The position numbers and the translations under genes were made by a program. The notes under the pieces were generated by a model. That model saw only the letters and a list, made by a program, of their open reading frames with translations. It ran no database searches and was not told where the DNA came from. Shown piece after piece: positions 4,392 to 27,696 of a stretch of 33,737 nt of DNA. The stretch comes from Acetobacteraceae bacterium (GTDB lineage Bacteria; Pseudomonadota; Alphaproteobacteria; Acetobacterales; Acetobacteraceae): NCBI GenBank assembly GCA_027459285.1, contig DAIDIQ010000069.1:1-33737 (forward strand), read 5' to 3'. Each line of letters begins with the position of its first letter. Within the stretch, counting starts at the first letter, position 1.

Positions 4392-4478
4392 TGGTGCGGG
4401 CGGTCGGAATCGAACCGACACTCTGTTGCCAGAACCGGATTTTGAGTCCGGCGCGTCTACCAGTTCCACCACGCCCGC
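4392..4478 (-). tRNA. tRNA-Leu (anticodon CAA)
   Basis: On the minus strand the acceptor arm GCGGGCG pairs with CGCCCGC, followed by discriminator A and an encoded CCA (4392-4394). The anticodon stem CCGGA/TCCGG holds the loop CTCAAAA, giving anticodon CAA. A long variable arm (TTCTGGCAACAGAG region) and the T-arm GGTTCGATTCC are present. The length of 87 nt is normal for a class II tRNA. Confidence 0.96.
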
Positions 4479-4514
4479 ATCCGTGTCCGGGCGCTTGCGC
4501 GACCGGATTATGTC

Positions 4515-4588
4515 TGGAGGTCCGGGCCGGAATTGAACCGGCATTCGCGGATTTGCAGTCCGCTGCATCACCACTCTGCCACCGGACC
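4515..4588 (-). tRNA. tRNA-Cys (anticodon GCA)
   Basis: Minus strand, 74 nt: acceptor GGTCCGG pairs with CCGGACC, then U as discriminator (typical of tRNA-Cys) and an encoded CCA. The anticodon loop CTGCAAA gives GCA, and the T-arm contains GGTTCAATTCC. It is 36 nt upstream of tRNA-Leu(CAA) on the same strand, so the two may be co-transcribed. Confidence 0.96.
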
Positions 4589-4685
4589 GAAGGCGCGCTC
4601 TTCATTCCAGCCTGTTGCCCCGCGGTCAAGAGAGGCATGGTATATGCCTACTTGAAGTCCGGCGTGAGTCTTTGAGTGGCGCGCA

Positions 4686-4806
4686 GTCCGGCACCGGCCC
4701 GCACCCCCACCCGGCCACCCACGAGCGTACACTGCCATGGGTGGCCGGGTGGGGGTGCGGGCTGGTGCCGGACTTCAAACAAAGCACGTGCGGGCCGGTG
4801 CCGGAC
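4686..4806. repeat. Large palindromic intergenic repeat, copy B (35/36 arms)
   Basis: Arm 4686-4721 pairs with 4738-4773 in 35 of 36 positions around a 16-base loop (4722-4737). The only difference from copy A in the arms is C to T at 4763, which leaves a G-U pair in a plus-strand RNA. The loop differs from copy A at one base. The downstream TTCAAACAAAGCAC and a partial arm (4790-4806) are also shared. It lies between the divergent tRNA-Cys and tRNA-Leu(UAA) genes. In the rest of the 4589-4892 gap only a short inverted repeat (AGGCAT/ATGCCT, about 4632-4650) is seen. Confidence 0.9.
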
Positions 4807-4892
4807 TGCGCGCCGGGCAGGTGCGCCGCGCTTAGACACCATCATGGTTTCCCTGCCGCCGGTTCCGCATTATGGGGGCAAGGCGGCACCGT

Positions 4893-4980
4893 GCGGGCGT
4901 GGTGGAATGGTAGACGCAGCAGACTTAAAATCTGCTTCCTGAAATCAGGAGTGCGGGTTCAAGTCCCGCCGCCCGCACCA
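4893..4980 (+). tRNA. tRNA-Leu (anticodon UAA)
   Basis: Plus strand, 88 nt: GCGGGCG pairs with CGCCCGC, then A and an encoded CCA ending at 4980. The anticodon stem GCAGA/TCTGC holds loop CTTAAAA, giving UAA. The long variable arm TCCTGAAATCAGGA identifies a class II tRNA, and the T-arm GGTTCAAGTCC is present. It shares the acceptor stem with the CAA isoacceptor at 4392-4478. Confidence 0.96.
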
Positions 4981-17214: not shown

Positions 17215-17257
17215 GTTCTTTTTTGAAAAAAAGAACCAAAAAACTTTTGTGACTCCG
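17215..17257. repeat. AT-rich 3'-end stem-loop repeat, copy 1
   Basis: GTTCTTTTTT (17215-17224) pairs perfectly with AAAAAAGAAC (17227-17236), followed by CAAAAAACTTTTGTGACTCC (17237-17256). Copies at 25692 and 27654 are nearly identical. It lies about 25 nt after the fecR-like stop, between fecR and the receptor gene, and both sides are T/A-rich, so it may attenuate or end fecR transcripts. Confidence 0.85.
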
Positions 17258-23997: not shown

Positions 23998-25680
23998 GTG
24001 CCGGACGCAACCCCGCCCGCCGCCACCGATAACGCCTTCCTGTCCCCCATCCTGGCCCGTGCCCATGCGAGCCCGGCCAGCATTTTCGGCCAGTTCCACG
24101 AGGCCGGAACCTGGGTGGAAATCACCCTCGGCCAGGCGCTCGGCCGCGCCCGGCAATTCGCCGCGCTTTATGCCGCTCACGCCATCCCGCCCGGCGCCAC
24201 CATCATGCTCGCCATCCGCCAGGACCGTGACGCGCCATGCGCTTTTCTCGGCGCGATGCTCGCCGGCTGCGTGCCGAGCTTCCTGCCCTGCCCCTCGCCC
24301 AAGCAGGACCATGCGCTCTACTGGCACCAGCACAAAACCGTGCTCGCCTTCAACCGCCCGCCGCTCGTGCTCGTGCCCGATGATCTGCTGGCCGACATGC
24401 AAGCCTGCGCCGAAGGCTCGGGCGCGGCCGTCGTGCCCATCAGCGCGGTCGAGGTGCTCGGTCCGGCACCCGTGCCCGTCACCCTGCCCACCTCGGAGAA
24501 AACCGGCCTGCTGCAACACAGCTCCGGCACCACCGGCATGAAAAAAGGCGTCGCGCTTTCCTATGGCAGCATCGCCCGGCAACTCGCCGCCTATCGCGCC
24601 GCGCTGGGGCTAAATCCCGACAGCGCGAAAATCGTCTCCTGGCTGCCGCTCTATCACGATATGGGGCTGATCTCGAGCTTCCTGCTGCCGGTCTGGCTCG
24701 GCGTGCCGATCCTGTCGATGGACCCGTTCGTCTGGGTTTCGCAACCCGATCTGTTCCTCGAGGCGATCGAGCGTTTCGGTGGCACCCATGCCTGGCTGCC
24801 TAATTTCGCCTTCCTGCACCTCGCGCGCCGCATTCCGCGCAAAAAAACCTGGGCCCTCCAATCCGTCATCGCCCTCATCAGTTGCTCCGAACCCTGCAAG
24901 GCCGCCGCGTTCGACGCGTTTCTGGCGCGCTTCGGCGACGAGGGTATCACCGCCGAGACATTGCAAACCTGCTACGCCATGGCCGAGACCGTGTTCGCCG
25001 TCAGCCAGAGCGACCTTGCCCGCCCGGTCCGGCGCCTCGCGGTTGACCCTGCCTGCATCAACACGCTCGGCCCCGTGCTGCCACCACCGCCCGGGGCCGC
25101 ACCGCTCACCCTGCTCTCCAACGGCAAGCCCATCGACGGTTGCACGGTCGGCGTGCTGCGTGATGGCCAATTCCTCGGTGAGCGCGAACTCGGCGAACTC
25201 GCCATCCGCGCCGACTATATGTTCTCCGGCTATCACAACAATCCTGCCGCAACCGAGGCCGCCTTCCACGATGGCTGGTATCGCACCGGCGATATCGGAT
25301 TTCTCGACCAGAACGAGGTTTTCGTCGTCGGCCGCACCAAGGACATCATCATCATCAACGGCAAGAACGTCTTCGTGCACGATATCGAGGCCGCGGTCTC
25401 GCGCGTCACCGGCGTCAAACCCGGCCGCGCCGTCGCCTTCGGCCGCTACTCGGAAAAATCCGGCTCCGAACTGCTCATCGTCGTCGCCGAGCGAGACGGC
25501 GCCACCATCCCCGACCACGACATCCAACGCGACATCAACCGCGCCGTGGTCGAGGAGGTCGGCGTGCCCTGCTCCGATATCCGCGTTGTCGAGCCGGGCT
25601 GGCTGGTCAAAACCACCAGCGGCAAAACCAGCCGCTCGGAGAACGCGGTGAAATACACAAGGGATTTCGTGGAAGGATGA
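23998..25680 (+). CDS. AMP-dependent acyl ligase (fatty-acyl-AMP ligase type)
   Basis: 560 residues starting with GTG at 23998, five bases after the ACP stop. It is an adenylate-forming enzyme of the ANL superfamily: P-loop LLQHSSGTTGMKKGVALSY (171-189), WLPLYHDMGL (A4-type), YAMAETVFAV (A5), GWYRTGDIGFLDQNEVFVVGRTKD (A7/A8, here described together), IIINGKNVFVHDIE, and the adenylation lysine K543 in TTSGKTSRSENAVKY. The HDMGLI element and the long N-terminus resemble fatty-acyl-AMP ligases, which hand the acyl group to an ACP rather than CoA. It probably activates a carboxylic acid and loads the adjacent ACP. The chain type is not readable from sequence. An AT-rich repeat starts 11 nt after its stop. 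Confidence 0.9.
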   Translation: MPDATPPAATDNAFLSPILARAHASPASIFGQFHEAGTWVEITLGQALGRARQFAALYAAHAIPPGATIMLAIRQDRDAPCAFLGAMLAGCVPSFLPCPSPKQDHALYWHQHKTVLAFNRPPLVLVPDDLLADMQACAEGSGAAVVPISAVEVLGPAPVPVTLPTSEKTGLLQHSSGTTGMKKGVALSYGSIARQLAAYRAALGLNPDSAKIVSWLPLYHDMGLISSFLLPVWLGVPILSMDPFVWVSQPDLFLEAIERFGGTHAWLPNFAFLHLARRIPRKKTWALQSVIALISCSEPCKAAAFDAFLARFGDEGITAETLQTCYAMAETVFAVSQSDLARPVRRLAVDPACINTLGPVLPPPPGAAPLTLLSNGKPIDGCTVGVLRDGQFLGERELGELAIRADYMFSGYHNNPAATEAAFHDGWYRTGDIGFLDQNEVFVVGRTKDIIIINGKNVFVHDIEAAVSRVTGVKPGRAVAFGRYSEKSGSELLIVVAERDGATIPDHDIQRDINRAVVEEVGVPCSDIRVVEPGWLVKTTSGKTSRSENAVKYTRDFVEG

Positions 25681-25691
25681 AAGGCAAGATC

Positions 25692-25795
25692 GTTCTTTTT
25701 TGAAAAAAAGAACCAAAAAACTTTTATGACTCCATCATGTGCCACACCATCCAGGAATAAAAGTTTTTTGCGCGACTTTTTTACAAAAAAGTCGC
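25692..25795. repeat. Composite inverted pair of AT-rich 3'-end stem-loops
   Basis: The first stem is GTTCTTTTTT (25692-25701) with AAAAAAGAAC (25704-25713), followed by CAAAAAACTTTTATGACTCC (25714-25733). After a 20-bp centre comes GGAATAAAAGTTTTTTG (25754-25770), the inverted counterpart, and a second stem GCGACTTTTTT (25772-25782) with AAAAAAGTCGC (25785-25795). The outer stems have different sequences but each is perfectly paired. The element lies between the acyl ligase and the EamA gene and is probably a bidirectional terminator or a structured transcript end. Confidence 0.85.
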
Positions 25796-25812
25796 CCTTC
25801 CTTCCCTCCCCC

Positions 25813-26739
25813 ATGAACAAGAACCACACCGCCCTCGGCCTGTTCCTGCTCGTCTGCCTGCTCTGGGGCGCCACCTGGGTGCCGCTGAAATACGATCTGC
25901 GGCAAATTCCGCCGCTGCTGCTCGCCGGCACCCGCTTTTCCACCGCGGGCCTGCTGCTGCTCGGCGGTCTCGCCACTCGCGGCGCCCTGCCGCGCCCCGC
26001 CCGCGCTCATCTGCCGCGCTTTCTCATCGTCACAGCACTGCTCATGGTCGGCACCTATTCGTTGCTGTTCTGGGGCGCGCAGTTCGTCGCCTCCGGCCTC
26101 ACCGCCGTGCTCGATCTCGCCTTCATGCCCGTCGCCCTGCTGCTGCTCGGCGTCTCCTGCCGCCAGGACCGTCTCACCTGGCCGCGTGCGCTCGGCGTCG
26201 CGGTCGGCGTGGCGGGCCTGCTCGTGCTGTTCTTTCCCGCCATCGCCGCCGCCCTCGCCGGCCGTGGCGGTCACGGCGGCGGCGCCGGCGTGCCGGTGCT
26301 TGGCGGCGGCGCCATCATCCTCAGCGCGCTCAGCTACGCGCTCGGCAGCGTGCTCTCCCGTCCACTGGTGCGCCAATACGGTCCGGCGCCGCTCTCGGGC
26401 GCCACAATGCTGCTCGGCGGCCTCACTTTGCTTATCGCCGCCCTCGCGTTCGAACCCGGCGCCAGCCTCGCCGCCCCCCTCGGCTGGACGCGCGTCACCT
26501 GGGCCAATTGGCTGTTCCTGGTGCTGTTCGGCTCCATCGTCGCCTACACCGCCTATCTCGAACTGCTCCGCCTGTGGGGCGCCACCCGCGCCGGCGCCTA
26601 TGCCTTCATCTCGCCCATCGTCGCCGTTCTGCTCGGGTTGCTGGCCTTTCACGAACCCATCGTGCCACGCTCGGCGCTCGGCATGCTCATCATGCTCGCT
26701 GGCGCCTACCTCACCCTCCGGCCAGCAGCGCCGCCATAA
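25813..26739 (+). CDS. EamA/DMT-family inner-membrane transporter
   Basis: 308 residues from the ATG at 25813; the upstream in-frame ATG at 25726 would add a repeat-derived segment. About ten hydrophobic segments are seen, in two EamA halves: the first (about 5-135) with LLWGATWVPLKY and the second (about 150-300) with LSALSYALGSVLSRPL and the family ending YAFISPIVAVLLGLLAFHEP. DMT proteins export amino acids, metabolites or drugs across the inner membrane; substrate cannot be predicted. It is convergent with the alpha/beta-hydrolase at 26774 and follows the acyl ligase after a strong terminator-like repeat, so it is probably a separate transcript. Confidence 0.93.
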   Translation: MNKNHTALGLFLLVCLLWGATWVPLKYDLRQIPPLLLAGTRFSTAGLLLLGGLATRGALPRPARAHLPRFLIVTALLMVGTYSLLFWGAQFVASGLTAVLDLAFMPVALLLLGVSCRQDRLTWPRALGVAVGVAGLLVLFFPAIAAALAGRGGHGGGAGVPVLGGGAIILSALSYALGSVLSRPLVRQYGPAPLSGATMLLGGLTLLIAALAFEPGASLAAPLGWTRVTWANWLFLVLFGSIVAYTAYLELLRLWGATRAGAYAFISPIVAVLLGLLAFHEPIVPRSALGMLIMLAGAYLTLRPAAPP

Positions 26740-27653: not shown

Positions 27654-27696
27654 GTTCTTTTTTGCAAAAAAGAACCAAAAAACTCTCATGACTTCC
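27654..27696. repeat. AT-rich 3'-end stem-loop repeat, copy 3
   Basis: GTTCTTTTTT (27654-27663) pairs perfectly with AAAAAAGAAC (27666-27675) around GC, followed by CAAAAAACTCTCATGACTTCC (here 27676-27696). Same layout as the copies at 17215 and 25692. It lies between two minus-strand hydrolase genes and is read, on the minus strand, about 65 nt after the stop of the upstream one. Confidence 0.85.

Follow-up and report, generated by a model that had tools for sequence, protein, structure and literature searches.

What is the origin and function of the palindromic sequence between two tandem genes of this Acetobacteraceae bacterium? Within the stretch of DNA analysed here (33,737 nt, called the window; host genome G000), a palindromic element fills nearly all of a 132-bp gap (25681–25812) between an AMP-binding and an EamA gene. 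An earlier note, made from the sequence alone, had described two AT-rich hairpins arranged head to head at this locus.

Structure of the palindromic element

The element and its surroundings consist of the following parts.

23998..25680, + strand: upstream gene encoding an AMP-binding (acyl-AMP ligase-like) enzyme, with its stop codon ending 11 nt 5' of hairpin 1
25678–25680, + strand: TGA stop of the AMP-binding gene
25681..25691, + strand: purine-rich outer tip AAGGCAAGATC, directly 3' of the TGA stop
25692..25713, + strand: T1-end hairpin GTTCTTTTTTGAAAAAAAGAAC, 22 nt; the same hairpin occurs in many copies
25714..25727, + strand: conserved inner segment CAAAAAACTTTTAT, 14 nt, left strand of the central helix
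25728..25756, no strand assigned: variable centre, 29 nt, weak fold
25757..25770, - strand: inverted inner segment ATAAAAGTTTTTTG, 14 nt, right strand of the central helix
25772..25795, - strand: T2-end hairpin GCGACTTTTTTACAAAAAAGTCGC
25797..25805, - strand: pyrimidine outer end CTTCCTTCC (= GGAAGGAAG on the - strand)
25813..26739, + strand: downstream tandem gene, EamA-family transporter
17215..17249, + strand: second T1 arm in the window, single, between FecR-like and TonB-receptor genes
27654..27688, + strand: third T1 arm in the window, slightly diverged, single

Elsewhere in the window, three closely spaced tRNA genes lie on both strands at 4395–4977.

Both perfect hairpins and the exact inverted partner of the 14-nt segment are present as first described; the centre between the 14-mers, given as 20 bp, in fact measures 29 nt. 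The T1 hairpin is laid out as GTTCTTTTTT-GA-AAAAAAGAAC (25692–25713) on a GTTC/GAAC foot and the T2 hairpin as GCGACTTTTTT-AC-AAAAAAGTCGC (25772–25795) on a GCGAC/GTCGC foot, the latter separated from ATAAAAGTTTTTTG by a single C. The outer tip AAGGCAAGATC is able to pair with the CTTCCTT end of the element, and the outer-end consensus in several genera is GGAAGGAAG-like.

The minimum free energy of the element is -32.9 kcal/mol, compared with a mean of -14.4 kcal/mol for 200 shuffled sequences, none of which folded as stably (z -6.1). This fold contains both hairpins and the central helix together. Hence these are not exclusive states, as had been proposed, and the real competitor is a single long inter-arm hairpin, which is about 3–7 kcal/mol worse in the window copy and is preferred over the three-helix fold in most other complete copies. 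The centre of the window copy holds a CTT..AAG core of -4.7 kcal/mol (z -0.7); the centres of some copies form strong GC-rich hairpins (for instance, L291, L236 and L258).

A repeat family in the host genome

A BLAST search with positions 25685–25800 (116 bp) yielded 73 matches in the host genome; the E-value was 1.9e-55 for the self-match and 7.5e-27 for the second-best copy. The exact arm pattern occurs 34 + 36 times (about 70), with no occurrence of the reversed control; when one mismatch was allowed in the 13-mer core, 40 + 38 occurrences were found vs 2 + 1 for the reversed control. The earlier note had held that few further copies would argue against a functional family, and many exist. 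Its statement that the arrangement was not chance duplication is right as to chance, because of these 73 matches and the 34 + 36 exact arms against a control of zero, and wrong as to duplication: this is a dispersed repeat, with sites that are present in one congener and absent from another.

One arm comprises about 50–55 nt. A purine-rich tip resembling GGAAGGAAG is followed by a T6/A6 hairpin, whose foot of 4–5 bp varies between lineages, and then by CAAAAAACTTTTR. Two arms, head to head around a variable centre of about 30 to about 200 nt, make up a full element of about 105–300 bp, the ends of which often carry different hairpins. Copies have the arms in common, not always the centres, and arms are also found singly, without an inverted partner. 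Sixty regions of the host genome revealed T1 (GTTC) and T2 (GCGAC) as the main arm types, along with degenerate or related third types. The second stem of the window copy, initially taken for a compensated version of the first at one locus, thus belongs to one of two standard end types with many copies each. Seventeen of the 20 complete T1/T2-class pairs in G000 are heterotypic T1/T2, two are T2/T2 and one is T1/T1; therefore, the two ends are distinguished in this genome. In another genome, G193, the corresponding mix of ends looks random, unlike in G000.

Long centres bear an extra GGCCGC..GCGGCC palindrome module, seen in long elements (L042, L055, L057, L062, L066–L068, L072) as a nested GC-rich module with GGCCGCTWCGCGGCCAAG and GGCGGGC..GCCCGCC palindromes. 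This module has 11 genomic sites, at least 10 of them beside or inside palindromic elements, and is possibly a second repeat or a long form of the element. Some arms of G193 lie tail to tail, facing outward and about 10 nt apart (L172 at 11749, L175 at 16318, L174 at 16469).

Covariation of the stems

The feet of the stems differ among copies (GTTC/GAAC, GCGAC/GTCGC, CTTC/GAAG, CCGC/GCGG and others). In an alignment of 29 distinct hairpins from several genera, 95.5% of the cells were paired vs 84.6% after shuffling, and the covariation score was 0.258 vs 0.063; neither value was reached in any of 500 shuffles. Cells with a double change numbered 29 vs 9.1 in the shuffled sets, and the pairing signal was lost when the partner was slid by 1–3 columns. 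The six A-T pairs are invariant as part of the search pattern and are hence uninformative on covariation. A set of 210 arms was picked solely for having the T/A core and the CAAAAAACTT motif. Of these, 207, 200 and 195 form stem pairs 2, 3 and 4, respectively, vs shuffle means of 142, 142 and 96. The idea that pairing is kept where sequence is not is thus borne out, for stems from several genera. Such covariation can also stem from quasipalindrome correction during replication, without selection. At the R base of the inner arm (A or G) no coupling across the centre was found (P = 1), so that selection on the central helix is unsupported.

Distribution across bacteria

Exact arms are present in 78 out of 299 Acetobacteraceae genomes, representing 34 of 102 genera, with the reversed control at zero in every genome, and in none of about 380 genomes of Alphaproteobacteria from outside this family. 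G193 has the most arms, 956 (485 + 471), followed by G097 with 767, and in the densest genome there is about one arm per 4–5 kb. Copy number is very unequal among members of one genus (g66), with 17, 376 and 956 arms.

The only two plasmid matches are pL11-A and pL11-B of Pseudoroseomonas cervicalis. The pL11-B copy separates two convergent genes and lies 9 nt 3' of a stop codon. Both plasmid copies (L226, L227) resemble a classical terminator more closely than does the copy in the window: a long, perfect, GC-rich hairpin forms the centre (GGCGTCCCGC..GCGGGACGCC in L226), and at the second end stands a CTTCTTTTTCTTCAGAAAAAGAAG hairpin. Exact arms also occur in viral-classified contigs (IMG/VR; 69 stretches, L228–L296), which may be prophages or host DNA miscalled as viral.

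A comparison with Rfam gave no match at the gathering score, only matches with sub-threshold E-values, and the exact arm strings were absent from the open-access literature searched. This abundant repeat family is apparently undescribed, its general kind being already known.

Genomic location and a possible role at gene 3' ends

Where a gene end lies on the outer side of an arm, the arm faces a stop codon in 34 of 46 cases in G000, 38 of 68 in G193 and 19 of 25 in G097. The distance from stop to arm is mostly within 30 nt, usually 4–30 nt; these distances are short and varying, and in the logos the tip contains no stop codon of its own at a constant position. Across 20-kb stretches taken without selection from G193 and G097, with genes called by a simple codon-model script, elements occupy 24 of 42 convergent, 42 of 136 tandem and 8 of 43 divergent gaps. 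Convergent gaps are enriched (odds ratio 3.4, P 5e-4) and divergent ones depleted (odds ratio 0.39, P 0.03). This placement fits a 3'-end function or a purging of insertions from promoters alike, two readings that these data cannot tell apart.

The earlier note had suggested a bidirectional terminator or an RNA 3' end. The latter fits, because copies sit just 3' of stop codons and favour convergent gaps; as for the former, a simple terminator scan called no canonical terminator inside the element. A bidirectional role of the element as 3' end or terminator is plausible, at well below an even chance.

A rival reading, likewise well below an even chance, is a family of bidirectional intrinsic terminators, in which RNA polymerase is stopped both ways by a palindrome with A-tracts at one side and U-tracts at the opposite one, and copies are kept at gene ends by selection, not by mobility. 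It would account for the location 3' of stop codons and the convergent-gap enrichment, for the U6 tracts read in both directions and for a strong overall fold, with strong GC-rich hairpins in some centres. However, the scan result speaks against it, the hairpins are AU-rich, and the window copy, which lacks a GC-rich hairpin with a U-tract in each direction, folds weakly just before the U-tract. Furthermore, termination does not need a 35-nt sequence that is identical across genera and varies from 0 to more than 900 copies among relatives.

Insertion sites and search for a transposase

In another genome of the same genus (G001, contig JAJXVA010000006.1) the same gene pair flanks a gap of similar length without any arm. 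The C-termini of the upstream proteins differ, DFVEG in G000 and DFVAADPVLPSG in G001, the latter protein being longer. In a second genus, G193 carries the element at sites A and D of L175, where both G144 and G066 lack it; other G193 sites are common to G144 or differ in the centre. From these comparisons we infer that copies were probably gained by insertion close to stop codons.

With MITEs the element shares inverted terminal arms, the lack of coding capacity and present/absent insertion sites. The arms might be the terminal inverted repeats of a DDE-type IS, the full form of which exists or existed in the family. The TIR-like ends, the size of about 105–300 bp and the missing tyrosine transposase would agree with this. 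Yet ten proteins scanned between far-apart arms contained no transposase domain, and neither a target-site duplication nor an exact insertion boundary could be read at these loci, where congeners are only about 70–83% identical. Also, each arm holds a palindrome within itself, and arms are found singly and tail to tail. We regard this origin as rather unlikely.

That the palindromes are not mobile at all, old copies being maintained by quasipalindrome correction and by gene conversion between them, is very improbable: templated repair can maintain perfect hairpins, and the copies do share arms and not always centres, but new sites in one congener only, right at the stop codon, and very unequal copy numbers within one genus argue against it.

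Relation to known repeats

The closest likeness is to REPINs (Bertels and Rainey 2011, PMC3116915). Shared with these are a conserved unit with a hairpin, arranged as an inverted doublet around a variable spacer, the singlets, the extragenic location in hundreds of copies, the compensatory changes and the occurrence of both clover and long-hairpin folds. In contrast to REPINs, the Acetobacteraceae element has no GTAG tag but an AAGGAAG-like outer logo followed by variable bases; its T6/A6 hairpin is AT-rich, its two ends differ in their hairpins, and it is strongly placed 3' of stop codons. The Y1/RAYT transposase (PF01797) is present in just four of 20 element-rich genomes; the other 16, some of them near-complete, lack it, as does the host. 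Because the tests for the GTAG tag and for RAYT failed, the element is not a REPIN member, and a classical GTAG REP/REPIN moved by a RAYT (TnpA-REP) tyrosine transposase is, despite the shared architecture, mostly refuted and has hardly any likelihood left.

ERIC (enterobacterial repetitive intergenic consensus) is a short intergenic palindrome comparable in size to the Acetobacteraceae element. It is likewise patchy in copy number within one bacterial family. Its sequence is unrelated as far as known, and it differs from the element described here, which has a separate hairpin at each end and is confined to Acetobacteraceae in the sample. Since ERIC is a sequence-defined family, our element is not a member. 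ERIC is regarded as a MITE (PMC10969869), and altered mRNA decay has been reported for its insertions at gene 3' ends.

The CGTC and GTAG REP superfamilies (Di Nocera 2013, PMC3733652) are also short palindromes in high copy, but the Acetobacteraceae family has neither tag as a fixed feature. CGTC REPs are without a dedicated transposase and were reported missing from Acetobacteraceae (PMC3733652). The element thus works like a dispersed palindrome of the REPIN/ERIC type and is a member of neither.

Conclusions

The feature in the window is probably one copy of a dispersed, non-autonomous, REPIN/ERIC-like palindromic element, restricted to Acetobacteraceae in our sample. Direct support comes from the repeat family itself, the covariation of its structure, its confinement to one bacterial family in the sample and the present/absent sites 3' of stop codons. 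What the earlier note had observed is real and more than chance; it does not concern a single locus, and the length that it gave for the centre and the exclusivity of its folds do not hold.

Copies of such an element would spread when its DNA is copied in single-stranded or cruciform form, moved by a trans-acting enzyme, as RAYTs are thought to move REPINs, and would persist chiefly where they land 3' of genes. Once transcribed, the palindrome would form a 3'-terminal structure, which may halt transcription or shield the mRNA, in either direction. More specifically, and only tentatively, the family may be REPIN-like, spread by a single-strand or hairpin-guided transposition that uses a non-RAYT enzyme and targets gene 3' ends, with two distinguishable hairpin ends. 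If this is so, there would be two independent solutions to REPIN-style dispersal.

The finding would add a very abundant class of repeats, missing from Rfam and the open papers searched, to the genomes of acetic-acid bacteria and their relatives. It raises the questions which enzyme moves a REPIN-like element without a RAYT, and whether this element sets the transcript ends of the many genes that precede it.
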